Source: Alphaproteobacteria bacterium (lineage in GTDB: Bacteria; Pseudomonadota; Alphaproteobacteria; CAAGCB01; CAG-977). Taken from it: a stretch of DNA of 63,807 nucleotides. The notes under the pieces were generated by a model. The model was not told the origin of the DNA, ran no database searches, and saw only the letters and a program-made list of their open reading frames with translations. Every line of letters begins with the position of its first letter. Position 1 is the stretch's first letter. Shown here piece after piece: positions 19,091-63,188 of this stretch. The DNA lies in NCBI GenBank assembly GCA_024413465.1, contig JAKSVU010000008.1, positions 1 through 63,807 on the forward strand. The letters run 5' to 3'. The translations under genes and the position numbers were made by a program.

Positions 19091-19966
19091 ATGTCTGATT
19101 TGGAATTAAAGCAAAATTTGGATACACCATTCGTAATCAAAGGCGATGATAAAACAGTTGCTAGAATTACGGATATGATTAATCAAATTGCCGTTTCTGA
19201 AACGGGAAAACAGACATTGGAAATTGCAAGTAAAGCAGGTTATTCTTTGGGAATGGAATTTGCTTTTGGGTGCAATGGAGGATGCAGTAAAGATAATAAA
19301 GTTATTATTTTAAATCCAGTTAGCCAAGATGACGTATTAGTTGGTGTGTTGGCTCATGAATGTCGTCACGCTGGTCAATTTGAACGTGGTGAATATGATG
19401 CTAGTGATGATAAGCGTCCTCGTCAAGAAACATTGATGACGAATATTATGAGAACACGTGCTGTTGAAGCTGATGCTCAGGCGACTGCCGCCCAAATTTT
19501 AGGAGAAATGATGGAAGCTGGGAATCCACAACCTTTAATGGCTTTTTGTCGTCAGCCAGATAACCAATATATTGGATCAGCATTTAACAGAGCTTTGTAT
19601 AATGAAAATTCTTTAAATGATGGCTCCGCAAGAACAGCAGCTTTTTTGGCTTGGTATGAAAATAAACCGGTATTAAAAGCTTATGACGAAGCTTATCAAG
19701 TTGAAATGATGGAACGCCGTGAAAAAAGTGGTGAAAATAAAAAAGATACTTATCAGAAAATTCAATCTCCAGAAAAAATAGTTTCTGATTTGTGTGTGAA
19801 TAATGATGGTAGTTGCTATTTTAAAGAAGATCCACAAATTTTAGCAACTGAAAAATATACAGCTGTTGATTATGGAACACAGTTGAAATTGAATCAGTTG
19901 ATGGATAACGTTCCAAATAAAACAAAAAATATTGCTTTAATGAAGAAAATGAGCAAAACGAGATAA
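19091..19966 (+). CDS. Putative zinc metallopeptidase (DUF6782-like)
   Basis: 291-residue soluble protein without a signal peptide. A zincin-type motif HECRH (His89, Glu90, His93) is followed by a likely third ligand region RAVEADAQATAAQI (Glu126). A short CNGGC pair (61-65) precedes it. The motif layout fits a family that I recall only as a domain of unknown function, DUF6782; the family name is tentative. It stands alone between terminators. The large VWA protein at 53547 also has an HExxH motif, and both genes have ATTTTTGTCTAAAA upstream. Confidence 0.6.
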   Translation: MSDLELKQNLDTPFVIKGDDKTVARITDMINQIAVSETGKQTLEIASKAGYSLGMEFAFGCNGGCSKDNKVIILNPVSQDDVLVGVLAHECRHAGQFERGEYDASDDKRPRQETLMTNIMRTRAVEADAQATAAQILGEMMEAGNPQPLMAFCRQPDNQYIGSAFNRALYNENSLNDGSARTAAFLAWYENKPVLKAYDEAYQVEMMERREKSGENKKDTYQKIQSPEKIVSDLCVNNDGSCYFKEDPQILATEKYTAVDYGTQLKLNQLMDNVPNKTKNIALMKKMSKTR

Positions 19967-20001: not shown

Positions 20002-20391
20002 TTATTTTTTCAGTTTGTCGGCGAATTCTGCACGAGGTGTATAATCTTCGTTGTAGCGAATAATGTCTGTTTCGTCTAACAAATCACCGGCTTGAACTTC
20101 GATGATGATTAAATCGTTTTGGCCGATATTTTCTATTCTGTGAAATTCACCTTTTGGAATAAAGATAGCATCATTTGCATTTTTAATCAGATAGTTATGA
20201 GCCAGTGTTACTTTTGCAGTCCCTTGGACGATTACCCAATGTTCACTGCGGTGGTCATGAGTTTGTAAAGAAATTCTTTGTCCTGGTGTGACGCAAAAAC
20301 GCTTAACAACGTAGGTGTCTGTTGTTGTTAAAACTTGCCACCATCCCCAATCGCGTTCGGCAGTTTCATTGTTTTGATACATTGTAGTCAT
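20002..20391 (-). CDS. Stand-alone phosphomannose isomerase-type cupin
   Basis: 129-residue cupin matching the C-terminal mannose-6-phosphate isomerase domain of type II ManC/AlgA proteins: DWGWWQVLTT, VKRFCVTPGQRISLQTHDHRSEHW with metal-binding His and Glu, then FHRIENIGQNDLIIIEVQAG and LLDETDIIRYNEDY. The guanylyltransferase domain normally fused to it is absent. A close paralogue lies at 32208 inside the glycan island. It begins 13 nt after the DUF2125 gene, with AAAGGA before the ATG. Likely role: fructose 6-phosphate/mannose 6-phosphate interconversion for GDP-mannose supply. Confidence 0.8.
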   Translation of the reverse strand: MTTMYQNNETAERDWGWWQVLTTTDTYVVKRFCVTPGQRISLQTHDHRSEHWVIVQGTAKVTLAHNYLIKNANDAIFIPKGEFHRIENIGQNDLIIIEVQAGDLLDETDIIRYNEDYTPRAEFADKLKK

Positions 20392-32207: not shown

Positions 32208-32591
32208 ATGATGACAACAAAATACGCTTTAAATGAAAAAGCAGAACGTCCTTGGGGATGGTGGGAAGTTTTGAATACCCAAGATACTTATGTTGTAAAA
32301 AGATTTTGTTTGAAACCAGGTAAAAGGATTTCTTTGCAAACGCATACTCATCGCAGTGAACATTGGGTTGTTGTAGAAGGAACGGCAAAGGTAACATTAT
32401 CTCATTCTCAGATTATTAAAAATGTAAATGATGCTGTTTTTATTCCAGTTGGAGAGTTTCACAGAATTGAAAATATTGGCTTGAACGATTTGGTGATTAT
32501 AGAAATTCAAGCTGGTGATTTATTAGATGAGACGGATATCGTTCGTTATAACGAAGATTATACCCCATGTAATGGAGATTATTATGGCTAA
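32208..32591 (+). CDS. Stand-alone phosphomannose isomerase-type cupin (second copy)
   Basis: 127 residues, closely similar along its length to the cupin at 20002 (same RISLQTHxHRSEHW, EFHRIENIG and AGDLLDETDI segments). It is the first gene of the nucleotide-sugar operon. The expected job is to feed mannose 6-phosphate toward GDP-mannose, the GMD substrate. As in the other copy, the guanylyltransferase part of ManC is missing and must be elsewhere. AGGA lies 7 nt before the ATG; the last 8 nt overlap the next gene. Confidence 0.8.
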   Translation: MMTTKYALNEKAERPWGWWEVLNTQDTYVVKRFCLKPGKRISLQTHTHRSEHWVVVEGTAKVTLSHSQIIKNVNDAVFIPVGEFHRIENIGLNDLVIIEIQAGDLLDETDIVRYNEDYTPCNGDYYG

Positions 32592-38991: not shown

Positions 38992-39955
38992 TTACAGGTA
39001 GTATTTACTTATCCTTTCCCCATAAAAAATATCCAATTGCATTATGATTTTATTCCAATCTGGGCGGATTCCCGTCCATTTCTTAGTTATATCTTTCGTG
39101 GCTAAATACAACAATTTTAATAAACTTTCATCTGTTGGGAAGACACTTCTTGTTTTGGATACTTTTCTCAATTGTCGATTAAAACCTTCTATTAAATTCG
39201 TTGTATATATTATTTTTCGTATATTCTCTGGATATTTAAAATAGGTTGATAATTCTGCCCAATTACTTCTCCAGGATTTGCCTATATATGAATATTCTTT
39301 GCCCCACTTTTCCTCAAATGCGTCCAATTCATTGATTGCTGTATTTTCATCAACTGCTCGATAGATTTTCTTTAGATCGCCTACCAATTCTTTCATATAT
39401 TTATATGATACATATTTCGTTGAATTATGTTGAACATCTGTTTCTTGATATATTGCATTTATTGCCTCTGTTATTATCTTGTCTGTGATATCGCTTAATA
39501 AACTTTCTGATATTGGTATACCGTATATATCTTCTATATGACTACTGATATCCCTTACTGTCATTCCTTTTGCATACATCGACAGTATTTTTGTTTCTAT
39601 TTCCGGTGTAATATAGGTTTGTCGTTTCCTCAATATTTGTGGTTCAAAATCACTTTTCCTATCTCTTGGTACTGATATTTCAAAACTTCCATCGTCTGTT
39701 TTTAAATGTTTTTTACTATGCCTATTTCGGCTATTTTCTCCACTTTTCCCTGAATGTTCATAGTTCTCATATCCTAAATGATCATCCATTTCTGATTCTA
39801 AGGCATTTTCAAAAAAGCTGCTAATAATTCCTTATTTAAGCTTCTTACTCCACTGTAATCTGATATGTTTAGTTCTTTTAATTATTTCTGCTAAATGTTT
39901 CCGTCTTGCTCGACGTTCTTTTGCGCTTTCTTCTTGGACCATTTTTTTTCTCCTT
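38992..39955 (-). pseudogene. Inactivated IS256-family transposase
   Basis: The longest surviving frame (38992-39789, 265 residues) matches the Mutator-type transposase in MYAKGMTVRDISSHIEDIYG, SKYVSYK-like STKYVSYKYMKELVGDLKKI, SWRSNWAELSTYFKYP, and IRKIIYTTNLIEGFNRQLRK. A full protein has about 400 residues. The stretch between AINAIYQ and NSTKYVS is missing, and with it the first two catalytic Asp. The true start appears to be an ATG near 39942-39944 behind GGAG, but that frame ends early at KKLK, and the next segment (NKELLAAFFENALESEMDDH) is in another frame. It cannot be functional. Confidence 0.8.
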
Positions 39956-43671: not shown

Positions 43672-44982
43672 ATGGAAAATAATCGTGGTTCATGGAATTC
43701 TAAATTAGGGTTGGTGATTGCTTCTGCCGCGTCTGCTGTTGGTTTAGGAAATTTGTGGCGTTTCCCATATTTAACTGCCAAAGATGGTGGTGGTGCTTTT
43801 TTGTTGGCATATTTGCTTATCACGGTTTTTGTAGGAGCAACTTTAGTTATTACCGAAGTTGCTTTGGGAATTAAAACGCGTAAAAATCCTGTGGGGGCTT
43901 ATGGTTCGATTAATCCTAAATTTAAATTTTTGGGTGTGATGAACGTTATTACGACTTCGATTATTTTACCTTATTACAGTGTTGTTGGAGGATGGATTTT
44001 AGCTTATTTAGCAAAAGCTCATTTATTCAACAATATGAAGGATTACAAAGCAGGATTTCTGAATTTAATTACGGCCGATTATGAACCATTGGTTTATTTT
44101 TTGATTTTTATTGTTTTAACAGCAGTCATTGTATTTTTTGGTGTGCAAAAAGGAATTGAACGGTTTTGTAAATTTATTTTGCCGGCATTGTTGTTTTTAT
44201 TAATTGTGATGATGTGTAGAGCTTTGACTTTGGACAAGGCAATTGAAGGTGTGAAATTTTTCTTTGTTCCTGATTTTTCAAAGTTTGATGCTAGAACTTG
44301 TTTAGATGCAATGGGACAAGTATTCTTTTCTATTTCAGTTGGTATGGGAATTTACATTACGTACGGTTCTTATTTGCAAGATGATGGGCAAAAGTGTATT
44401 GGTAAGGTGATTTGGCCTGTTGTTACTGCAGATACGGTTGTATCTTTGTTAACAGGATTGACAATTTTTCCAGCTGTTTTTGCTTTGGGAATTGAAATGA
44501 CTTCTGGAACGGGATTAGTATTCATTACGTTTCCTAAAATTTTTGGAACAATTTATTTGGGAACCATATTCAGTTATGTGTTCTTTGCAATTTTCTTTTT
44601 TGCAGCAATTACGTCAGCTGTTTCCTTGATGGAAGTGGCAATTTCATTTTTGATAGATAATTTAAAAATGAGTAGAAAAAAAGCAGTTTGGATTGATTTT
44701 ATTTATTGTGTCGTTATTGGATCAATATCTTCTTTGTCTTTTGGAAAGTTAGGTGGCTTTACAATTGCTGGAAAAAATTTCTTTGATCAATTAGATTTCT
44801 TAGCTTCAAATATTTTGTTGCCGTTAAGCGGATTTTTAACAAGTATTTTTGTTGGTTGGGTGCTTGGTCCTGAAAAATTGCAGGTATTTACTAATCTAAA
44901 ACAACAAAAAATGTTTGAATTTTGTATCAAATGGGTAGCACCAATTGCTACGCTGATTTTATTTGTCGATTGTGTTAAGTAG
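43672..44982 (+). CDS. Sodium-dependent transporter of the NSS/SNF family (copy 1)
   Basis: 436-residue inner-membrane Na+-coupled symporter. The N-terminal WNSKLGLVIASAASAVGLGN then LWRFPYLTAKDGGGAFLLAY is the NSS signature (unwound helix 1 and sodium site). About 11 hydrophobic helices follow, with helix 6 region DAMGQVFFSISVGMGIYITY lining the substrate pocket. Bacterial members carry amino acids such as Trp, Leu, Tyr or Met. It stands 5 nt before a close paralogue. Confidence 0.92.
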   Translation: MENNRGSWNSKLGLVIASAASAVGLGNLWRFPYLTAKDGGGAFLLAYLLITVFVGATLVITEVALGIKTRKNPVGAYGSINPKFKFLGVMNVITTSIILPYYSVVGGWILAYLAKAHLFNNMKDYKAGFLNLITADYEPLVYFLIFIVLTAVIVFFGVQKGIERFCKFILPALLFLLIVMMCRALTLDKAIEGVKFFFVPDFSKFDARTCLDAMGQVFFSISVGMGIYITYGSYLQDDGQKCIGKVIWPVVTADTVVSLLTGLTIFPAVFALGIEMTSGTGLVFITFPKIFGTIYLGTIFSYVFFAIFFFAAITSAVSLMEVAISFLIDNLKMSRKKAVWIDFIYCVVIGSISSLSFGKLGGFTIAGKNFFDQLDFLASNILLPLSGFLTSIFVGWVLGPEKLQVFTNLKQQKMFEFCIKWVAPIATLILFVDCVK

Positions 44983-44987
44983 AAAAG

Positions 44988-46301
44988 ATGTCAGAAAATA
45001 GTCGTGGTTCTTGGAATTCTAAATTAGGTATGGTGATTGCTTCCGCAGCATCTGCAATCGGATTGGGCAATTTATGGAGATTCCCATATTTGACTGCAAA
45101 AGATGGTGGTGGAGCTTTTTTGCTAGCATATTTGTTCATTACTATTGTTGTTGGAACCGTTATGGTTATTACAGAAGTTGCTTTGGGATTTAAAACACGA
45201 AAAAATCCAGTAGGAGCTTTTGGTTGGATTCATCCTAAATGTAAATTTGTGGGTGTATTAAACGTGATTGCTTGTATGACTATCTTGCCGTTTTATAATG
45301 TAGTTGGTGGTTGGATCTTAGCTTATTTAGTGAAAATACATACTTTTAATCAAGTATCAGATTATAAAGTAGAATTTACAAATTTAATTACTGCAGATTA
45401 TGAACCACTTGTCTATTTCGGAATTTTTATGGTTTTTTCCGCAATAATTGTATTTAGGGGTATACAAAAAGGAATTGAACGATTTTGTAAAATTTTGTTG
45501 CCTCTTTTGTTGTTTTTATTGATCTTGATGATGTGTAGATCATTGACGCTAAATAAAGCTTTAGATGGGGTAAAATTTTTCTTTATTCCAGATTTTTCAA
45601 AATTTGATGTCAGGTTGTGTTTAGATGCAATGGGACAGGTGTTCTTTTCGACTTCTGTAGGATCTGGTGTTTACATTACATATAGTTCTTATTTGAAAAC
45701 AACAGAAGAAAAAGGTATAGGAAAGATAATTTTGCCTGTTGTTATTGCTGATACCGTTGTTTCGTTATTAACAGGTTTGACAATTTTCCCAGCTGTTTTT
45801 GCATTTGGAGTAGAAATGACTTCTGGAACAGGATTGGTATTTATCACGTTTCCTCAAATTTTTGAAACAATGTATTTGGGAACAATCTTTTGTTATGTAT
45901 TTTTCTTAATTTTCTTTTTGGCTGCAATTACTTCTGCGATTTCCTTGATGGAAGTTCCTATTTCATTTTTGATAGATAATTTGAAATTAAGCAGAAAAAA
46001 AGCAGTTGTTGTGTATTCTATTTATTGTTTGATTTTCGGGACAATTTGTTCTTTGTCTTTTGGAAGATTGGGTGGTTTTACAATCGGCGGAAAAATTTTC
46101 TTTGATCAATTAGATTTCTTGTCTTCAAATATTTTATTGCCATTAGGGGGATTCTTAGGCAGTATTTTTGTTGGTTGGATACTTGGTCCTGAAAAATTAC
46201 ATGTATTTGTTAATCAAAAACAACAAAAAATGTATGAATTTTGTGTTAAATGGGTAATACCAATGGCTACGCTGATTTTATTTATCGATTGTATTAAATA
46301 A
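44988..46301 (+). CDS. Sodium-dependent transporter of the NSS/SNF family (copy 2)
   Basis: 437 residues, very similar to the preceding gene along the whole length (WNSKLGMVIASAASAIGLGN, DAMGQVFFSTSVGSGVYITY). Differences fall in pocket-lining helix 6 (SISVGMGIYIT against STSVGSGVYIT) and in helices 3 and 10, so the two may differ in substrate. Tandem duplication followed by divergence is the simplest history. It is convergent with the Mrr-type gene. Confidence 0.92.
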   Translation: MSENSRGSWNSKLGMVIASAASAIGLGNLWRFPYLTAKDGGGAFLLAYLFITIVVGTVMVITEVALGFKTRKNPVGAFGWIHPKCKFVGVLNVIACMTILPFYNVVGGWILAYLVKIHTFNQVSDYKVEFTNLITADYEPLVYFGIFMVFSAIIVFRGIQKGIERFCKILLPLLLFLLILMMCRSLTLNKALDGVKFFFIPDFSKFDVRLCLDAMGQVFFSTSVGSGVYITYSSYLKTTEEKGIGKIILPVVIADTVVSLLTGLTIFPAVFAFGVEMTSGTGLVFITFPQIFETMYLGTIFCYVFFLIFFLAAITSAISLMEVPISFLIDNLKLSRKKAVVVYSIYCLIFGTICSLSFGRLGGFTIGGKIFFDQLDFLSSNILLPLGGFLGSIFVGWILGPEKLHVFVNQKQQKMYEFCVKWVIPMATLILFIDCIK

Positions 46302-53409: not shown

Positions 53410-53427
53410 TTTTTTTATTTTTTTAGA

Positions 53428-53461
53428 ATCCCTTTCGATTTGTCGAAAGGGATTTTTTTTT
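53428..53461 (+). terminator. Terminator of pepN
   Basis: A perfect 11-bp stem, ATCCCTTTCGA and TCGAAAGGGAT, with a TTTG loop and T8-9. It separates pepN from the AAA/VWA operon. Confidence 0.95.
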
Positions 53462-53492: not shown

Positions 53493-53521
53493 TTGACGCA
53501 AGGTTTGAATTTTGGTAATAT
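53493..53521 (+). promoter_or_regulatory. Promoter of the AAA+/VWA/LRR operon
   Basis: TTGACG (53493-53498) and TAATAT (53516-53521) have a 17-nt spacer. It lies 25 nt before the first start codon, with AAAGG as ribosome site 6 nt before the ATG. The sequence ATTTTTGTCTAAAA just upstream also occurs before the metallopeptidase gene at 19091. Confidence 0.6.
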
Positions 53522-53546
53522 TCACTAAGTTATATAAAGGCGTATT

Positions 53547-56543
53547 ATGATGGATATGAATCAAGGCAAAAGTGTTGACGAAATTCTAGATAACCCACTG
53601 AATCAAATCAGATATTGGGCTGCTGGGAAGTTTGGTAAACGCGAATTTACACCGGAATTATTTGATGAAGTGGTCGAAAAAATTCGTCCATTAGCAACCG
53701 ATTCGAAAGTTTTTGACGAAGAATTGGAAAAAGTCCGTGAAGCAATGGAAACGGGCAGAACATCTAAAACGCCAGCTTTAAAATCACCTTTAAACCAAAT
53801 GTTATGGGGAGCCTGTTTGGCAACAATTGATAATACGCCAAATCTACGCCAAAAATGGGCTGACGAATACGTTGGTAAATATATTGATGAACCTTTAACC
53901 AAGTTACCTTTATGGAGCCAAGTGGCACATTGTCCGGATGCTAGAACGGAGTTGCGTGAAAACGCCTTTATTATCGCAACTGCTATCAAAAATCCTGGTA
54001 CAAAAATCCGTTGGGGGATGCCAGATCAAGGATATCCAGACGTTTCTTACTATTATAATTCCGAAGAAAAATTGATTAATTTGGATATGGTATGGAGTTT
54101 GATGATTGGTGTTGAAAATGCTCGTGCTGCAAATATGCATGAAATAGGGCATTCTCAAGGAACAATTTATCAACCAAAAGGTTCTGAGGAAGCTTATAAA
54201 AAAGTTCAGGAATGCCGTGAAAAAATGAAAGTTTTGGATACATTTCCTGAACAAGAACGTCCTGCAATCGAACATGATATGTTGATGGCAATGACGGATT
54301 ATAAAATGCGTTATTACATTTTCGATGAAGCTGAAAATAACTATGCAAACCGTTATGCTGTTAATCAATCTCAGCGTTCTGCGCAAGATTTTGGAACGGC
54401 TGTTAATACGCTTGAAACAACTTTATGTCTTGGATTAAGTGGAGATGCAAAAGGAACAACGGAAAATCCTCAAGTAATGGATTTATTCCAAAATATGAAA
54501 TCCCTTATGCGTTATTCTTTCTACATAAACAACGGTTTAATGCCGGATGAACCAAAAGGTTGGGAACGGTTGGGTGTTCATAAAGAATGGTTGTCAGGAA
54601 AAGATGCTGATGGAAAGCCAATGACAGCAGATCAGTGTTTTGCTGAAATGCGTCGTATGTGTACCGAATTGGAAGCAGCTCAACCTCAAGCTCGTGATAG
54701 ACTGATGGGTGCATCTTTTTATGCAAAGAAAATGGAAGATTGTTCTCATAAGCGTTGTGAGATCATTGATGAAATGTATGATCGTTTTGTTTCACCTTTA
54801 ATTCCTGAAATTGTTCGTCAACGCGAAGAACAAATGAAGCGCCAAAAAGAAGAGGCTGAACGTCAACAACAGCAACAACAGAAAGATCAAAAAGATCAAC
54901 AAGGGCAACAGCAACAACAACAGCAAGCTCAAAGTGGTCAGCAAGGTCAACAATCTCAGCAATCCCAACAATCAGCAGGTCAACAGTCTCAACAACAAAG
55001 CCAGCAAGATAACGAAAATGGACAAGGACAACAGCAACAACAGAGCCAGTCTTTATCCATGGGGAATGGTGGTGCTGGTGAAGAGTCAAATGATCAGCAA
55101 AATCAACAACAGCAGTCTTCTGAACAAAATGGAAATTCAAGTTCTAAGCCTTCCCGTAATGGACAAAGAACAGGTCAGCAATCTGATTCAGAAAATCAAT
55201 CTCAAGATATAGAACAACAAATGCAACAAATGGATAAGCAGATGAGTAATTCTGTAAAACAGTTGCGTGAAAAATCTGAGAATAAAGCTGATGGTAAAGA
55301 TGAACAATCTGCTGAAAATCAACAACAAGGAAAAGATGAAAAGCAGGGGAAATCTGGAAAACAGGATAAAAATAAAGATAGTAACCCAGATAAAGGTGAA
55401 AGTTTAGAAGATTTAGTCAATAAAGAAAATAATGACGAAAATACAGAATCTGCTGAAAAATCTAAATCCGATGATGCAAATCAACAAGGTTCGTCTCAAG
55501 CAAGAAAAGGTGATCAAGAATGGAATCCACCTGGAAATGCAGGTAAAGAAGGAAAAGAACATTCAATTACGGATTTCTTACCATCTGAATTGCGTTCTTT
55601 AAATGAATATAATCAAATTATAAAAGATCATCAACAGACGGCAAAAAAACTCAAACAACAATTGCAACAAATGCAAAATATGTATATGGGTGAACCTACT
55701 GATTCTAAAAAACGTCAATTAGTTCCTGAAGATAGTGATTTAAGTAAATTTGATTTGGATTCATATATTGAAAGAAAAGTTAAATTAGCAACAGGTCAGC
55801 AGGTTGATGAACGTGATTTTGAACATTTCAAAGTTAAAGGTGAACCTGAAAAGAAAGCTGCACCAATTGATATCGCAATCTTAATTGATCATTCTGGTTC
55901 AATGGGACAGGGAGAAGGTAGTCCATTTGAAACAGCTTTGGCTACAGCTTGTGTTATGTATGAAGCTGCAAAAGATAATCCATGTTTCAACGTTTATGTC
56001 GTCGGAGCAGGAGATCCATACTGTTACCCTATTGCAGAACCTGGTCAATCATCAAAAGATATTGCAAAGCGTATTGCAAGTTTGCGAGATCATTGTGGTG
56101 GTTCTGCAGATATGATGTCTGACGGTATTGAAAAAACTATGGAAAAAATAGGGAAGAATAAAAATACAGAATATTCTGGTGCTACACATTTCTTCATTAT
56201 TTCTGATGGCGATTTTAATGATCAAAACAAATCAGTTCCAATGATTGATACTTTGTGTGAACAATCTAAAGGTGAAATAACCTTTAATATGATTTTGACG
56301 AAAAAAGGTCGCAATAAAATAGAGGATTTAGCAGATAAACGTTCAACAGGAAAAGGTTCTGCTCGTATTGATCGTGTTCATATTTCTGGACCGAAAGATA
56401 TTGATACAGCTTTGAATTTGATGTTGAAACGTCGTATGTCTGAAATGGGCAAAATTGATGCTCAAAAAACAGATAAGAAGTCGAAAGATTTTGGAAAATT
56501 ATTAACAACCATCCAAGCCCAACGCGGTAATGGTTGGTTTTAA
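53547..56543 (+). CDS. Large VWA-domain protein with HExxH N-terminal domain and Gln-rich linker
   Basis: 998 residues in three parts. Residues 1-430 hold a metallopeptidase-like motif HEIGH (198-202) with a possible third ligand in FDEAENNYANRY (Glu262). Residues 435-600 are extremely Gln-rich, then charged to about 670. Residues 735-998 form a VWA domain with MIDAS DHSGS (781-785), preceded by LDSYIERKVKLATGQQVDER, which recalls the NorD/CbbO and CobT proteins. Such VWA proteins act with MoxR-class AAA+ partners to remodel or metallate target proteins; the AAA+ gene follows 23 nt later. The fusion of an HExxH domain to this VWA type is not one I know. Confidence 0.8.
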   Translation: MMDMNQGKSVDEILDNPLNQIRYWAAGKFGKREFTPELFDEVVEKIRPLATDSKVFDEELEKVREAMETGRTSKTPALKSPLNQMLWGACLATIDNTPNLRQKWADEYVGKYIDEPLTKLPLWSQVAHCPDARTELRENAFIIATAIKNPGTKIRWGMPDQGYPDVSYYYNSEEKLINLDMVWSLMIGVENARAANMHEIGHSQGTIYQPKGSEEAYKKVQECREKMKVLDTFPEQERPAIEHDMLMAMTDYKMRYYIFDEAENNYANRYAVNQSQRSAQDFGTAVNTLETTLCLGLSGDAKGTTENPQVMDLFQNMKSLMRYSFYINNGLMPDEPKGWERLGVHKEWLSGKDADGKPMTADQCFAEMRRMCTELEAAQPQARDRLMGASFYAKKMEDCSHKRCEIIDEMYDRFVSPLIPEIVRQREEQMKRQKEEAERQQQQQQKDQKDQQGQQQQQQQAQSGQQGQQSQQSQQSAGQQSQQQSQQDNENGQGQQQQQSQSLSMGNGGAGEESNDQQNQQQQSSEQNGNSSSKPSRNGQRTGQQSDSENQSQDIEQQMQQMDKQMSNSVKQLREKSENKADGKDEQSAENQQQGKDEKQGKSGKQDKNKDSNPDKGESLEDLVNKENNDENTESAEKSKSDDANQQGSSQARKGDQEWNPPGNAGKEGKEHSITDFLPSELRSLNEYNQIIKDHQQTAKKLKQQLQQMQNMYMGEPTDSKKRQLVPEDSDLSKFDLDSYIERKVKLATGQQVDERDFEHFKVKGEPEKKAAPIDIAILIDHSGSMGQGEGSPFETALATACVMYEAAKDNPCFNVYVVGAGDPYCYPIAEPGQSSKDIAKRIASLRDHCGGSADMMSDGIEKTMEKIGKNKNTEYSGATHFFIISDGDFNDQNKSVPMIDTLCEQSKGEITFNMILTKKGRNKIEDLADKRSTGKGSARIDRVHISGPKDIDTALNLMLKRRMSEMGKIDAQKTDKKSKDFGKLLTTIQAQRGNGWF

Positions 56544-56566
56544 GTACCATTTTAGGAGAGAAAAAA

Positions 56567-59311
56567 ATGGCTGAATTAAAAGAAGTATATTTTGGATTAG
56601 AAGAAACACCGTTGCCAGTGGGGCATAATAATCGTGGCGAATTCGAAACATTAGCCAGTGATGAAGGTTGTTTAACGTTCCAAACGTTACGCGAAGGTAA
56701 GGAAGATATTTCCGTTGATGAACGCTTATATTTTGAATTGATGCGTAAATTACCATCAAGAAGTATGTTGCCGTACTTGAAGCAAGAATTAACCTTACGC
56801 GATCCGAACAGAACAGATGCAGCTAAGAAAAGCTATATTTCTGGGTATATTGGTGCTCCATCTATTGGTAAATCATTTGCTTTTAAAACTTTGGGTAAGT
56901 TAACACATCCAAAGGGAGCTTTGATGGTCAACTGTAAAGACGTTGATATGGGAACGTTGTTTTGTGAAACTGTTTTCGATACGTCTGCAGCAGATGCTGA
57001 AAAAGCAGCAATTGATGCTAAATTGATGTTGGGAAATAAAGATGCTTCTCAAGGTTTAAATGATAAAAGTATCGCTTTGTTGCGTAATGCTTTAGGAAAA
57101 GCTTTTTCTGAAGAAGAACGTAATGGTAAAAAAGTTTATTCTATTGATTGGAATGGAATTCAAGTTAAAGGTGAAACTTTTGAACAACAAAACTATCAAA
57201 AACAAGTTCTCTCCTCTTGTTTGAAACAAGTTTGTCAGCTTGAAGGTATTGCCGATAATGGTGGTGCTCAAAGTATTGGCATTACAACTCGTGATGGTGC
57301 TGCAGTTCGTGTATTAGATCCAAATTCTGCTGATTATGGTCGTCCATTGTTATTGGATGAAATTAATCGTTGTAAACCTGGTACGTTACAAAAGTTGTAT
57401 GAATATACAGCTATGTTAGCAGATCCAAAGGTAGATACGTGTGAAGTATTAGCTGGTGGAAATCGTCCTGTTACATTATCTCGAAACGCTTTTCCTCCAA
57501 CGTTCCGTGTAAACTTTACAGGAAACCCTGCAACAGAAGGAATGGGATCCGAAGATATGGATAAACCATTCGTATCTCGTTTGGGTGTAGAATTGGATTT
57601 GATGAATTTGCCAGATCCTACGGAGGCAGATATTGCAGATCGTATTTCAAATTCCTTGTCTGGTGTACCATTGACGCAGTTGTATTATTCTAATGAAGAA
57701 TTATACAAAAATGATCCAAATGCTTTTGTAGAAGATTTGATGGTTTACAGAACAGGTGGTTTAACTGAAAAAGAAAAAGCAGCTATTCCACAGGAAGAAA
57801 TTTTAAATATTCAAAATGCTCCAAAAACATTACAAGTTGCTGAACAAATGGCTGGATTTTTTGCAGATATGCGTCAATTAACAAATCCAAATTCTGCTTT
57901 GTATAAAAATTCAGAATTGACTTTAAGTAGCGAATATGAAGCTTATTTAAAATCATTAGAAATTGATTTGCGTTTGGCAACAAAATATATGGAAAATGCT
58001 GCTGTTGAAAATCCAACAACAACAACGGCTCCAAAACGTATTGGAACTGGTCGTATCGGTGGCAAAATTGGAAAACCTCGTGAAGGATTCAAGCCACAGA
58101 AAAGTGATATGACAGAACGTTTGGCTACCCGTGGTGATCGTTTGGAAGCAAGTTTAGAAGCATGGATGGAACGTATATTTAAACCAGGTCATGCAGAAAC
58201 TTTAGGTATTGAACGTGAAGAAATGGAACAAATGTATGCCATTGCAAAAAGAATTGCTGCTCATCATGGAATTGGCGAAGCAGAATTGCAAGAAGGTAAA
58301 TTGTCTAGCTCTACCCGTTTGAAAGATATTTATAACGTTGATCGTTCTCAATTACCATCAGCTCAAAATGCTGTTATTCGTGAACAAGTTGTAGATGTTA
58401 TTGAAAAATCAACAGGAATAAAGATTGAAGATCCAAAAGAAGCCATTTCTGATTTTGCAATTAATACAAGTTTGAAACGTGCTCAAGAACGTGCTGCCGT
58501 TGAACCTGAATATAAACAAGTTCGTGAAATGTCAGTATTGAATGACAACGTAGATACGGTTGTTGATCAACCTATTATTCCAGCTGTTTTATCTGATGTT
58601 ACAGTGATGGAAGCTCCAGCTCCACAAGATTTGATTCCACATAATACGTTTGTTGGCGCTTTGGCAATTCCAGCTTTGTCTGCAACAAATATGAAGTCTT
58701 TATGGAATCAATCATTGTCAACGCTAAGTGATGTTGATCATGAAGATGAAACCGTCAAGATTGCTGAAAATCGTTCTGAAACAGGATTAGGCTTGACAAC
58801 TTTATTAACAAATGACAAGGGCGAAGCTGTTATTACGCATGTTATGACAGATGAAAAAGCTCACAGAACAGTTATTGTTAGTGAAGACGTCGATGAAAAA
58901 GTTCAAGATATGTTTGCACGTAATTCAATTACTTATATTGACAGAAAAGCACCAGATGCTGCTGAAAAAATCAATAAAGAAGTTGAATTTATGACAAAAG
59001 GTCGTGAAAATCCAGATGAAGTTGCTGCTTATTTACAAGGAGCAATGATGTTGCGTGATAGCTCTGTTGCAGAAACTTTAGGTGATGCAATGGTCGCAAG
59101 TTCAACTGAAACAGTTTATAATCCAATTTTTGTAACAAAGGTTGAAAAGCGTGGCACAATTGATAAAGAAAAATTGGTTGCAAATGAAAAGGCTGGAAAA
59201 GTTTCTGCTGATGTCCAAGCTAGATTGGATGCTGTTAAAGCTCCAGCTAAACAGGTAGCTGCACCAACAATGTCTTATGCCGCAGAAATGCGTCGTCGTG
59301 GCTCACGTTAA
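56567..59311 (+). CDS. MoxR/CbbQ-like AAA+ ATPase with long C-terminal extension
   Basis: 914 residues. The AAA+ module is at about 90-380: Walker A GAPSIGKS (96-103), Walker B LLLDEIN (261-267), sensor 1 FTGNP (317-321), and an Arg-finger-like FVSRLGVELDL. The distance between Walker A and B is about 160 residues, roughly three times normal, so a large insertion lies in between. The 530-residue C-terminal part is predicted helical and then beta-rich, and matches nothing I recognise. The upstream frame starts at 56534, but AGGAGA sits before the ATG at 56567. It is the natural partner of the VWA protein. Confidence 0.82.
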   Translation: MAELKEVYFGLEETPLPVGHNNRGEFETLASDEGCLTFQTLREGKEDISVDERLYFELMRKLPSRSMLPYLKQELTLRDPNRTDAAKKSYISGYIGAPSIGKSFAFKTLGKLTHPKGALMVNCKDVDMGTLFCETVFDTSAADAEKAAIDAKLMLGNKDASQGLNDKSIALLRNALGKAFSEEERNGKKVYSIDWNGIQVKGETFEQQNYQKQVLSSCLKQVCQLEGIADNGGAQSIGITTRDGAAVRVLDPNSADYGRPLLLDEINRCKPGTLQKLYEYTAMLADPKVDTCEVLAGGNRPVTLSRNAFPPTFRVNFTGNPATEGMGSEDMDKPFVSRLGVELDLMNLPDPTEADIADRISNSLSGVPLTQLYYSNEELYKNDPNAFVEDLMVYRTGGLTEKEKAAIPQEEILNIQNAPKTLQVAEQMAGFFADMRQLTNPNSALYKNSELTLSSEYEAYLKSLEIDLRLATKYMENAAVENPTTTTAPKRIGTGRIGGKIGKPREGFKPQKSDMTERLATRGDRLEASLEAWMERIFKPGHAETLGIEREEMEQMYAIAKRIAAHHGIGEAELQEGKLSSSTRLKDIYNVDRSQLPSAQNAVIREQVVDVIEKSTGIKIEDPKEAISDFAINTSLKRAQERAAVEPEYKQVREMSVLNDNVDTVVDQPIIPAVLSDVTVMEAPAPQDLIPHNTFVGALAIPALSATNMKSLWNQSLSTLSDVDHEDETVKIAENRSETGLGLTTLLTNDKGEAVITHVMTDEKAHRTVIVSEDVDEKVQDMFARNSITYIDRKAPDAAEKINKEVEFMTKGRENPDEVAAYLQGAMMLRDSSVAETLGDAMVASSTETVYNPIFVTKVEKRGTIDKEKLVANEKAGKVSADVQARLDAVKAPAKQVAAPTMSYAAEMRRRGSR

Positions 59312-59323
59312 TAGGGGATGAAA

Positions 59324-59644
59324 ATGACCACAACAACACTTGATATGGATAAAATGGTTCCTGAAATAGCATTGCAAATGGCAATGGAACATAAAATGTA
59401 TTCTGTTGCAGATTGTTCTGTGTATCAATTAACAGAACAATGGCAAGAACAAATTTTAGTTCAATCCAAATATGCAAGTATTGCACATACTTTGGCTGAA
59501 TTAGAAAAGGTTTTGGGGGACGAAGATCCAGCATGTGTTGTTTTACCTGATGATTGTGCAATCACAAATGAAACTTTAAAAGCTGTTTTATCTAGAAATA
59601 GTGCAGATAAAACTATTTTATGGGGTGTGCCAGCTCATGTCTGA
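59324..59644 (+). CDS. Small protein of unknown function in the AAA+/VWA operon (106 aa)
   Basis: Not recognised. 106 residues (MTTTTLDMDKMVPEIALQMA...), acidic, with a helix-rich N-terminal half and an ending LSRNSADKTILWGVPAHV. Two ATGs are possible; AGGGG lies 7 nt before the second (59324), which is chosen over 59318. Its last 8 nt overlap the next gene's start. The tight packing suggests it is an integral part of the system. Confidence 0.65.
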   Translation: MTTTTLDMDKMVPEIALQMAMEHKMYSVADCSVYQLTEQWQEQILVQSKYASIAHTLAELEKVLGDEDPACVVLPDDCAITNETLKAVLSRNSADKTILWGVPAHV

Positions 59645-61076
59645 AAATAAATTAAAAGCAACAAATTTATTATATAAAGCAGGATATTCTCCGGAAGATG
59701 CTGCAAAAGTTGCTGACGATATTTTGTCTCCTGCAGATGGTGTTGTAAACTTGGATTACAATTTTTTTATGAATTCACCAAAAGAAATTGGCAAAACATT
59801 AGCCGAAATATTGCCAATGAGTGAAGCAAAATCATTGAAAATAGATGAACATAATCCAGTTTTTGGTTTTACAAAAACACCTTTGACGGTGATGAGATCA
59901 AATTGTGGAAAAGATTTTGGAAAATACAAAGCTTTAGGTGATTTGTTGGAAGCTTTGCCAAAAACTAAAATAGAAAGTGTCTATTTGAACGAATTGGCTT
60001 TGGGAGATGAAGTTTATACTCAATTTTCAAAAGGCATAGCAGAAAGTTCTCAATTAAAATCAGTTAAAATTGTTCATTGTGATGTTGAACCATCAATTGT
60101 TAATGGTAGTTTTTTACCAAATTTAGCAAAAAGTGGTGTTGAAGATTTTGGACTAGTCGATTGTGGAGTTCGTGGAAATTATACTTCTAGTTTGATGGAA
60201 AATCTAGCAAAGTCAAAAGTGTTAAAATCTGTTGATTTTTCTGAAAATAAAGGTTTGTTTAGAGATTCTAGTGGCGAATTTATATCAGCTCTTCCATCCA
60301 CAGTTGAAAATTTAAACGTGTCAAATTGTGAAATTTCAGATTGGCATACAGCAACACAGGTGGCAGCACATATTCGTCAAAATAAAAATTTGACAGATTT
60401 GAAAATGGCATCTTGCAAAATGGAAGAAGCTGTTGCCCGTGATATTATTAACGTTTTGGGTGATACAAATTTATGGCGTGTTGATTTATCAGGAAATCAA
60501 TTAGATGATCGTGCTGCTCAAGAATTGACGGAATCAATCAGCCGAGAAGATTGCCGAATTTATGAAACTCGTTTTATGGAAAAACCTGCTGTTCCTGCAG
60601 TAGACATGTTGCGCCAAGAAATGAAAAATACAGCTGAAGAAGGTAGCTTGACTGAATTGAAAAAAGCTGAAGAAAGAAATGCTATAAAATATCAGGTGTA
60701 TTTAGACCAGGAACAAGCAAAAGTTGATTATGAAAAACAGAGCAAGGAAGAACGTAAAGCTGATTTGTACACGGCTGCAAAAGCAGGAAAAATTGGTGAA
60801 GTGTTAGCAATGGTTCCTTTAAAACCAAATGATTTGTTGAAAACTGATGAAAAAGGAAAAACATTACTACAACACGTTTGGGAATCAGGTTCCTTAAATC
60901 AGGTCTTTACACCTAAAAATTGGTCAAATGCAAAAGAAATGCAACGAATTTGGAATGAAGTGCCTAAAAAATTCCAAAAACAAATGGATGGTAAAGACGG
61001 GCATGATAGTTTTATTAAGAATAAAAGTATCGTAACGGCAAATGCTTTGAGAAAATCATTAGCACAGGGACGATAA
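59637..61076 (+). CDS. LRR protein 1 with C-terminal conserved module
   Basis: 479 residues, no signal peptide. Residues about 95-310 form irregular leucine-rich repeats of the ribonuclease-inhibitor type (LKSVDFSENKGLFRDSSGEF, VENLNVSNCEISDWHTATQV, LTDLKMASCKMEEAVARDII, LWRVDLSGNQLDDRAAQEL). A helical linker follows. The last 105 residues contain DLYTAAKAGKIGEVLAMV, which resembles an ankyrin helix pair, then FTPKNWSNAKEMQRIWNEVP. The same module ends the next protein. The frame extends upstream to 59601, but the ATG at 59637 (MSENKLKATN) is the sensible start. Confidence 0.72.
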   Translation: MSENKLKATNLLYKAGYSPEDAAKVADDILSPADGVVNLDYNFFMNSPKEIGKTLAEILPMSEAKSLKIDEHNPVFGFTKTPLTVMRSNCGKDFGKYKALGDLLEALPKTKIESVYLNELALGDEVYTQFSKGIAESSQLKSVKIVHCDVEPSIVNGSFLPNLAKSGVEDFGLVDCGVRGNYTSSLMENLAKSKVLKSVDFSENKGLFRDSSGEFISALPSTVENLNVSNCEISDWHTATQVAAHIRQNKNLTDLKMASCKMEEAVARDIINVLGDTNLWRVDLSGNQLDDRAAQELTESISREDCRIYETRFMEKPAVPAVDMLRQEMKNTAEEGSLTELKKAEERNAIKYQVYLDQEQAKVDYEKQSKEERKADLYTAAKAGKIGEVLAMVPLKPNDLLKTDEKGKTLLQHVWESGSLNQVFTPKNWSNAKEMQRIWNEVPKKFQKQMDGKDGHDSFIKNKSIVTANALRKSLAQGR

Positions 61077-61088
61077 GGAGATAAAGAA

Positions 61089-62417
61089 ATGGCTGAATTA
61101 ACAGAAGATCAAATTTATTCAAAATGCACAGATGCTGGGTATACGCTCGGTTTCAAATATGGCCGTGGTAGTGACGTTGATCAGGTAATCAGAGAAAGTA
61201 AAAGAATGGGATCAGAATTTGTTGATCCTAATAAAGCTGTTTGTATCGATTTTAATACCTTTGATTCTGAAAAAATGATGGATTTAATTAAAGATACAAA
61301 AAAAGAAACTGTTTCTTTAATCGGTGTTAATGATGATAACCGTTTTCAAAAAGAAGTTGATAAAAAGTTTCGTGATCCAGATTGTCCTGTTAAAGATTTG
61401 ACTCTTTCCAATGGATGTTTGAAAATGTATGGATTTTCAGATAAATATCCTTCAGTTGAAAAAATGACGTTTTCCGATATGGAATTTTGCGGTAATTTAG
61501 GAAATGACTTAGCATGTAAAAATTTAGAGTCATTAAAAATTGAACGTTGTAAAGCAATTTATTTCGATCAACAAGAAAAAGGTGTTGTTGTTTCTGCATT
61601 AAAAATTGCTGAAAAACATAATTTGAAAAAATTTACCCTTCGTGAAATGTCTTTAAAAGAAGGTTCTAAATATTTTATGAACATCAATATCGATTGGAAT
61701 AAACTTCCAACGACATTGGAATATTTGAACTTGTCAAAAACAGATATTATGTATGGTGATTTTGACGGATTAATGAAAGTTTTGCCCAATTTACCTAATT
61801 TAAAAGTTGTTGAAATGGCTTCTTGTGGATTAACAGCAGAACATGCTGATAAATTGGCAAAGGCTTTGAGTGAATCTTCAGTTCGTCATGTCAATTTATC
61901 TGGGAACTGCTTTGATGATGAATCAAAGAAAAAATTGAGAGTTGACAACAAAGAAGTTTGTTTGGACGGATATTTTGAATGGCATGGTGCTGAAGTCGCT
62001 AAAATGTTAAATCAAACTCGTCCTATTGAAGAAGCTGCCCAAAAAGCATCAACCAAAGAAGAAATGGTTAAAACTGGTGTTTTAAGAAATGCTGCTAAAG
62101 CAGGTTCTTTTGAAGATATTTTAAAAATGTTAAAGCAACAAAACGTTTATTTAACAGCAGAAGATTATACAACTCCTGGAAAGGATGGCAGAACAATTGC
62201 TGAAGATTTGGCAAAAACAAATCAGGTCAATAGTGCATTTAAACCTGAATATTGGGTAAATCCAAAGGATATGCAGGCTGCTTGGAATGCTGTTCCTGAT
62301 GAAGGTAAGGAACAACTAGGACCAAATGGTGGAAAAGCTGCTTTCCAAGTTCGTAAAAATCAGGTGATGATGGCTGCAGTTCGTAGAAATACTTTGTTAG
62401 CTGGAAAATCAAGATAG
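61089..62417 (+). CDS. LRR protein 2 with C-terminal conserved module
   Basis: 442 residues. Leucine-rich repeats of the ribonuclease-inhibitor kind run from about 95 to 305 (VKDLTLSNGCLKMYGFSDKY, LEYLNLSKTDIMYGDFDGLM, LKVVEMASCGLTAEHADKLA, VRHVNLSGNCFDDESKKKL). The C-terminal 110 residues (LRNAAKAGSFEDILKMLKQQ, FKPEYWVNPKDMQAAWNAVP) are homologous to the end of LRR protein 1. AAGGAGAT lies 7 nt before the ATG. The two proteins look like diverged paralogues, and recognition of protein targets is the usual role of such repeats. Confidence 0.75.
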   Translation: MAELTEDQIYSKCTDAGYTLGFKYGRGSDVDQVIRESKRMGSEFVDPNKAVCIDFNTFDSEKMMDLIKDTKKETVSLIGVNDDNRFQKEVDKKFRDPDCPVKDLTLSNGCLKMYGFSDKYPSVEKMTFSDMEFCGNLGNDLACKNLESLKIERCKAIYFDQQEKGVVVSALKIAEKHNLKKFTLREMSLKEGSKYFMNINIDWNKLPTTLEYLNLSKTDIMYGDFDGLMKVLPNLPNLKVVEMASCGLTAEHADKLAKALSESSVRHVNLSGNCFDDESKKKLRVDNKEVCLDGYFEWHGAEVAKMLNQTRPIEEAAQKASTKEEMVKTGVLRNAAKAGSFEDILKMLKQQNVYLTAEDYTTPGKDGRTIAEDLAKTNQVNSAFKPEYWVNPKDMQAAWNAVPDEGKEQLGPNGGKAAFQVRKNQVMMAAVRRNTLLAGKSR

Positions 62418-63188
62418 TTGAAAAAATACTTTTTAGTAATTGTTATTCTGTTCTTCGCAGGAATGCCTTTTTTATATCCTGCACAGGGTAGAGTTTATTT
62501 CGAAAATGAGGCTGATTATACTGCAGATTTTGCTGATGGTTTAAACAGAATGTATCATGAGCTACAATCAATGCATTTGTATGATGGATTAAAAGAAAAT
62601 ACAAATAAAACGTTTAAAGACCAATTTAATTTAAAAGATACTCAGTTGGATGAGGACTTGAAAGAGGCTGTTTTTGTTTCGTATATTTATCCTAATGGAA
62701 ATAAAAATTTAAAAATAATTGATACAATTTCTTTTGAAAATGGCTTTTGGGGAATAGCTTTTCAACAACGAGATCAAAATATTATAATTGCTTTTCGAGG
62801 GACTGATGAAATCGGAGATATAAAATCAGATTTACAGTTACTTCGTCAAAAAGAACTACCAGAACAATATGCTAAAGCAATTCAATTTTATAGTAAAATT
62901 AAGGAACAAAATCCGGGAAAAAGAATCATTGTTACAGGCCATTCTTTAGGAGCCTCATTGGCTCAACTTGTTGGAGCTACATATAAAGAAAGCTATGTAT
63001 TTGCTTGTTTCCCAATTGGAACAAAAAAGATTATTAAAAATAATAAATTAAAAGATTATAAAAATATCTACTCTTTTGTTGCAGAGGGGGATTTTTTTTC
63101 AGCACCATTTGCTCATCCAGGTTTTGTAAAACAAGTAAAAACAGATGTGATGAAATGGGCACATTCATTGGAAAATTGTTTTGAGTAG
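62418..63188 (+). CDS. Secreted class-3 lipase-like protein
   Basis: 256 residues. The hydrophobic N-terminus MKKYFLVIVILFFAGMPFLY, cleaved perhaps after PAQG, points to export. NIIIAFRGTDEIGDIKSDLQ and IIVTGHSLGASLAQLVGATY (nucleophile Ser in GHSLG) are hallmarks of the class-3 lipase fold, with a later Asp in VAEGDFFS and a C-terminal His (PGFVKQ or WAHSLEN). The start is a TTG directly after the stop codon of LRR protein 2. No ribosome site is clear, so translation may depend on coupling. It is the last gene that is plainly part of the operon. Confidence 0.75.
   Translation: MKKYFLVIVILFFAGMPFLYPAQGRVYFENEADYTADFADGLNRMYHELQSMHLYDGLKENTNKTFKDQFNLKDTQLDEDLKEAVFVSYIYPNGNKNLKIIDTISFENGFWGIAFQQRDQNIIIAFRGTDEIGDIKSDLQLLRQKELPEQYAKAIQFYSKIKEQNPGKRIIVTGHSLGASLAQLVGATYKESYVFACFPIGTKKIIKNNKLKDYKNIYSFVAEGDFFSAPFAHPGFVKQVKTDVMKWAHSLENCFE

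Follow-up and report, generated by a model that had tools for sequence, protein, structure and literature searches.

The window (63,807 nt of DNA) corresponds to contig C109 in an alphaproteobacterial MAG of 2.03 Mb. It carried six co-directional genes encoding, in order, a VWA protein, an AAA+ ATPase, a small conserved protein, two LRR proteins (LRR1 and LRR2), and a lipase (Table 1). As claimed in an initial annotation, which had proposed the six genes as one operon and a candidate functional system, successive genes were separated by 23 nt or less or overlapped, with a gap of 23 nt between the VWA and AAA+ genes and an overlap of 8 nt between the 108-aa gene and LRR1. The terminator noted ahead of the operon was verified as a base-paired stem with a T-run. 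By contrast, the "strong promoter" was not substantiated, as the site exists but similar sites were no more frequent in the window than in shuffled sequence (32 observed, 37.5 expected). A seventh gene, for a HAD phosphatase (63181 on), overlapped the 3' end of the lipase gene, and the directon thus extends past 63188 and runs off the window.

Table 1. Coordinates of genes and features at the window locus
Feature	Position	Strand	Description
Intrinsic terminator of upstream pepN	53425..53456	+	14-pair stem, 4-nt loop, T-run; 5' boundary mark
Promoter-like site TTGACG-17-TAATAT	53493..53521	+	TG before second hexamer; consensus match only
VWA protein gene	53547..56543	+	998 aa; N-terminal gluzincin-like helical domain, acidic Q-rich linker, C-terminal VWA
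HEIGH motif (H198-E199-xx-H202)	54138..54152	+	HExxH in VWA protein, residues 198-202; conserved E263 downstream
MIDAS motif DHSGSM	55887..55904	+	VWA protein
AAA+ ATPase gene, AAA_5/MoxR-like	56567..59311	+	914 aa; ATG start; long conserved C-terminal extension
Walker A GAPSIGKS	56852..56875	+	AAA+ protein; G96, G101, K102 invariant in 25 homologues
Walker B LLLDEIN	57347..57367	+	AAA+ protein; D264, E265 invariant in 25 homologues
Small conserved protein gene	59318..59644	+	108 aa
LRR1 gene	59637..61076	+	479 aa; RI-type LRRs and C-terminal module
LRR1 shared C-terminal module with basic tail	60732..61073	+	
LRR2 gene	61089..62417	+	442 aa; RI-type LRRs and C-terminal module
LRR2 shared C-terminal module	62016..62414	+	Invariant Trp, basic tail
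Lipase gene, class-3-type	62418..63188	+	Signal-peptide-like N-terminus; Mbeg1-like/Lipase_3; judged outside unit

Elsewhere in the window, two tandem transporter genes (43672-46301; 436 and 437 aa) were closely similar, with near-identical N-termini. Two short genes of 129 and 127 aa (20002-20391 and 32208-32591), closely similar to each other and judged by eye to be cupin-like, flanked a region that is rich in glycosyltransferases and contains a transposase fragment (38992-39789). A DUF6782 putative metallopeptidase (E 4.8e-49) was encoded at 19091-19966, 34 kb from the cassette.

Conservation of the gene order

Multiple observations support a conserved unit at this locus. We scanned one genome per species across 84,980 species with two peptide patterns and found 26 loci, a lower bound given the dependence on these patterns, every one in alphaproteobacterial MAGs; together with the window and genome G001, these made a set of 28 loci. 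First, the VWA gene lay directly upstream of the AAA+ gene in all 27 loci with both ends visible. Second, in 23 of 24 loci, all but L065, the AAA+ gene was directly followed by a gene for a protein of ~108 aa, and a gene encoding the C-terminal module came next in 20 of 24; the four loci that had none (L067, L068, L080, and L083) formed one clade in the AAA+ tree. Third, overlaps of 4 nt recurred among relatives between the VWA and AAA+ genes and between the 108-aa and module genes. Fourth, the window AAA+ protein was only 24-30% identical to AAA+ proteins outside its family, showing that the gene order has been kept across deep divergence. Finally, congeners G011 and G010 had the block VWA-AAA-108-LRR-LRR in two other chromosomal contexts, where it stopped before unrelated convergent genes and, in G010, included a third LRR gene; in the three congeners, the block was thus intact at three different chromosomal places. 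A four-component cassette (VWA protein, AAA+ ATPase, ~108-aa protein, and module-bearing repeat protein) therefore exists in scattered Alphaproteobacteria. The LRR form of the repeat protein was confined to the window's family, and in other families this slot encoded an ankyrin-like protein that carries the module too.

These data also bear on whether the genes are simply unrelated neighbors in a coincidental directon. Coincidence does describe the lipase and downstream HAD genes, but it is refuted for the first five genes by their retained order in congeners and by the four components kept together in distant families, and as an account of the locus it is extremely improbable. Given this conservation in relatives, clustering of the first five genes exceeds chance; that of the lipase gene does not. 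The lipase gene adjoined the cassette in one of 24 loci, namely the window, and distant homologues (34-38% identity) were located elsewhere in G002, G004, and G011. We reject the lipase as a cassette member, since no relative has an adjacent copy, and consider it a chance neighbor. Adjacency in relatives, the check that had been suggested for the original proposal, thus upheld the AAA+/VWA pair, small protein, and module-bearing repeat proteins as a conserved functional unit but removed the secreted lipase from it and limited the LRR form to one family.

Occurrence of the cassette was patchy (one of 398 genomes of the phylum). In seven loci of one clade, it adjoined dksA, and ymdB, zapA, and a gene of the inositol-monophosphatase family were close by; this synteny indicates vertical inheritance in that clade. 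No cassette copies were found in plasmid records, phage records, or viral contigs by tblastn and viral scans, and a phage or plasmid origin was rejected on these grounds. Two further candidates were set aside. The pepN and HAD flanks did not define an empty site, as their homologues lay apart and in other contexts in the congeners, leaving no clean site; and a DUF6782 metallopeptidase, related to the window protein at 19091-19966 and considered as a fifth member, lay directly after the cassette in two lineages only (L066/L027 and L075, the latter with two copies).

The AAA+ and VWA proteins

None of the window VWA, AAA+, and 108-aa proteins passed a Pfam or NCBIfam cut-off. The AAA+ protein by itself barely matched Pfam AAA_5 (E 0.11), and 10 of 25 relatives matched this family (best E 5.6e-7); these matches, together with the motifs, are the basis of the AAA+ assignment. 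Walker A, Walker B, sensor-1 (TGN in the window protein), and arginine residues were invariant or nearly so among 25 AAA+ homologues. VWA_2 scored above its Pfam cut-off in relatives of the window VWA protein, the MIDAS sequence DxSGSM was kept in every VWA homologue checked, and the linker was acidic in all 23 homologues (median charge -44; -13 in the window protein). A weak Pfam match of the 108-aa protein to NTP_transferase (8e-4, below cut-off) lacked support in most homologues, and this identity was rejected.

The HExxH motif highlighted in the initial annotation is present in the window VWA protein as HEIGH, but it does not define the family. The motif was intact in seven of 21 homologues (those of the window genus, L027, L028, L030, and L065), and in the remaining 14 the first histidine was replaced by arginine (R-E/Q-x-G-x); E263 was invariant. 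With an intact HExxH and a third-ligand glutamate, the N-terminal domain of the window protein resembles minigluzincins and gluzincins (selecase, abylysin, neprilysin, and M1 aminopeptidases). It gave no sequence match to these enzymes, and two thirds of the cassette homologues have lost a zinc ligand. A model of the domain (pLDDT 86) had no Foldseek match (best E 0.54), and its VIA-align scores for gluzincins (Z 3.8-5.3) were all below 8 and mixed with those for unrelated helical folds; they included neprilysin (Z 5.3, 210 residues), selecase (Z 4.5, 105/109 residues), and further weak matches to DPP III, aminopeptidase N, and abylysin. PDB sequence searches with this domain and the AAA+ core gave no useful match. 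The modeled domain is best read as a degenerating gluzincin. Because the ATPase motifs and MIDAS are kept and the first histidine is lost in 14 of 21 homologues, the conserved activity is probably AAA+ remodeling and not proteolysis. A protease as the core activity was rejected for the same loss, and proteolysis would be at most a lineage-specific addition.

Repeat proteins and their C-terminal module

The RI-type LRR assignment that the initial annotation had given LRR1 and LRR2 was confirmed by a profile match to ribonuclease inhibitor (E 8e-52). Iterative profile searches established that the module common to both is a homologue of a unit repeated three to six times in the ~500-aa cassette protein found outside the window's family. 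The ~500-aa protein is predicted to be ankyrin-like, as its model was a helical solenoid resembling ankyrins (pLDDT 89.6), with matches to DARPin PDB sequences (E 7e-5), VIA-align Z scores of 5.9 or less, and Pfam Ank below cut-off, modest values that do not prove an ankyrin fold. Because the module is homologous between the LRR and ankyrin-like proteins, the LRR repeats appear to be a lineage-specific replacement on the same docking-like end.

The module spans ~115 aa plus a basic tail, has no Pfam name, and contained a single invariant residue, a tryptophan, in an alignment of 29 sequences. Known ankyrin and RI-type LRR proteins differ from the cassette repeat proteins in lacking this C-terminal addition. 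Mean net charge over the last 12 residues was +3.70, +3.21, and +3.40 for 33 dispersed, 14 cassette, and 20 window-family module proteins, compared with +0.93 and +0.72 for neighboring proteins (p 9e-17 and 4e-9 for a trait that was noticed in the data before its test), and 17 of the 20 window-family proteins ended in lysine or arginine. Judged from charge, the tail may contact the acidic VWA linker. Between the window and G011, dN/dS was 0.07 for the AAA+ gene, 0.12 for the VWA gene, 0.32 for the 108-aa gene, 0.30 for LRR1, and 0.40 for LRR2; the partners thus evolve faster than the AAA+/VWA pair, and positive selection was not seen over whole genes.

Module genes were not confined to the cassette. 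When ten cassette genomes were searched with the cassette protein profile, matches beyond the cassette gene numbered 6 to 10 in G751, G752, and G753, three in G756, and two in G758; nearly all spanned only the last ~115 profile columns, and some lay in tandem clusters. G754, G755, and G757 had the cassette copy alone, and the profile search of G759 and G760, from the clade that has no cassette module gene, gave zero matches. Within the window's family, LRR2 had 12 matches on five contigs of G001 (11 beyond the best), and G011 had one extra module copy. Orphan module genes, with the cassette undetected, occurred in G002 and G004 of this family (one copy each) and in G181. Across a sample of 385 genomes of the class, the module was found in three of five cassette genomes versus two of 380 others (G004 and G181; Fisher p 1e-5, a value inflated because the module gene is itself part of the cassette). 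Four of six dispersed module proteins scanned were clear ankyrins by Pfam (Ank_2), a fifth was sub-threshold, and L154 had no Pfam match.

Several individual loci deserve mention. The L154 protein (L154:1204-2436, G752) had LRR-like repeats and the module by eye, and the LRR-module combination may thus extend beyond the window's family. At L140, L143, and L145, four to six ankyrin-module genes were clustered in tandem at a distance from the cassette, and their order looked alike in G751, G752, and G753. In the pond MAG G110, two more module genes (G110:C34:223474-224554) lay ~15 kb upstream of the cassette. A 1205-aa frame with at least five module copies was present in G181 (L159, L163, and L166; G181:C2:71483-73543), a MAG that is 69% complete and in which the cassette was undetected.

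Such repertoires could be explained in other ways. MoxR-VWA pairs like CbbQ-CbbO and NorQ-NorD serve specific clients, and the repeat proteins might likewise be clients with unrelated jobs, which the AAA+/VWA pair would fold, assemble, or disassemble using the module as a handle. The many module proteins per genome, some distant from the cassette, fit this explanation, but the orphans in G002, G004, and G181 imply that module proteins do not strictly need the machine, and we consider the explanation unlikely, if a serious one. Alternatively, since ankyrin and LRR repertoires with basic C-termini are typical of effectors exported by host-associated Alphaproteobacteria, the module proteins might be secreted by means of a basic C-terminal export signal, with the cassette as a chaperone or loading machine. 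VirB4 was present in most of the window's family, as such export might predict, but it was not found in the window's genome or in G110, G751, G752, G753, G754, G756, and G758; the genomes with the largest module repertoires outside that family are among these. A link to a VirB4 type of T4SS was rejected for this reason, and secretion of the module proteins seems quite improbable.

Known MoxR-VWA systems and a tentative model

The MoxR-vWA ternary conflict systems combine the AAA+/VWA pair with a third component that is a VMAP, iSTAND, FtsH pair, beta-propeller, or TERNS3 (PMC7159879, PMC8195603; see also PMC10907252); the text of the first of these sources mentions ankyrins zero times and LRRs once. 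Like those systems, the cassette encodes an AAA_5/MoxR-like ATPase, an adjacent VWA protein, and a dedicated further component, and its shared module may recruit additional proteins in the manner of their EAD adaptors. Unlike them, its further component is an LRR or ankyrin protein with a new module, and its VWA protein, in place of C-terminal effectors, carries a zincin-like domain at the N-terminus together with an acidic linker. No VMAP, iSTAND, FtsH, beta-propeller, or TERNS3 domain was found when the VWA, 108-aa, LRR, and module proteins were scanned against Pfam, nor was there an effector domain on the third component or C-terminal to the VWA domain, which is itself C-terminal. The cassette would work like the ternary systems, but we do not count it among them because the scans revealed neither the third components nor the effector domains that define those systems.

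A role of the cassette itself in biological conflict, with the LRR and ankyrin proteins as sensors of invaders, would agree with the same core pair, the patchy distribution, and the fast-evolving, expanding repertoire. It fits poorly with the vertical inheritance of one clade's cassette beside the housekeeping genes dksA, ymdB, and zapA, with a PADLOC search that gave no match above noise, and with the lack of VMAP, iSTAND, or effector domains and of viral or plasmid copies. An anti-invader system is therefore improbable.

Other MoxR-VWA pairs resemble the cassette in part. As in CobS-CobT, the AAA+ gene lies beside a gene for a VWA protein with an acidic linker ahead of the VWA domain, but Pfam scans revealed no CobT domain (PF06213 and PF11775 had no match at E 1) and there is no CobN. 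Because the hhalign profile alignment with CobT was limited to ~40 columns surrounding the MIDAS (probability 24.5%, E 8e-4), CobST membership was rejected. RavA-ViaA, NorQ-NorD, and CbbQ-CbbO share the proposed principle that a client held by the VWA protein is remodeled by its AAA+ partner, but the sequences are too divergent to place the cassette among them and no accessory protein is shared; none of the three is known to have a repeat-protein partner. Pfam scans with E thresholds of 0.5 to 1 also gave no match to DUF2201_N or the VWA-like DUF2201, the domains of the DUF2201 metallopeptidase-VWA proteins. None of the papers searched was found to describe the combination of VWA, AAA+, 108-aa, and repeat-module proteins.

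We tentatively favor a model in which the AAA+/VWA machine serves a family of LRR and ankyrin adaptors that would dock via the module and tail. The AAA+ and VWA proteins would form a MoxR-type remodeling machine, and the 108-aa protein is a putative assembly factor for it. If the machine operates as MoxR-VWA pairs do, a ligand bound by the VWA protein would be remodeled by the AAA+ ring. The C-terminal module and basic tail would dock on this machine, perhaps at the MIDAS and acidic linker of the VWA protein. Target choice would fall to the LRR or ankyrin solenoids, which would bind particular proteins, and ATP hydrolysis would remodel or release the bound complex. In the window's lineage and the few others that retain an intact zincin site, cleavage of the target could occur as well; most relatives would lack this capacity. 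The original suggestion that LRR proteins recognize a target and deliver it to the AAA+/VWA machine thus fits the data with respect to recognition and delivery, but the LRR proteins are only the lineage-specific version. The orphan module genes in G002, G004, and G181 count against this adaptor model, as does the missing 108-aa gene of L065, and the four loci of one clade that keep VWA-AAA-108 and have no module gene indicate that the machine has some module-independent role. A broader form of the model, in which one machine is served genome-wide by an expandable ankyrin/LRR recognition set with an exchangeable repeat type and a constant docking end, is more doubtful.

MoxR-VWA pairs are widespread, and few have known clients. 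The four-gene set described here was previously unnamed, and its LRR and ankyrin partners carry one C-terminal docking-like module. Because this shared, tag-like module allows the partners to be read from the genome, recognition of clients or adaptors becomes directly testable, and our analysis distinguishes conserved ATP-driven remodeling from a zincin site no longer intact in most relatives. If correct, the adaptor model would provide a bacterial example of LRR and ankyrin solenoids serving as interchangeable recognition parts on one docking module, a logic akin to that of eukaryotic substrate-receptor families.
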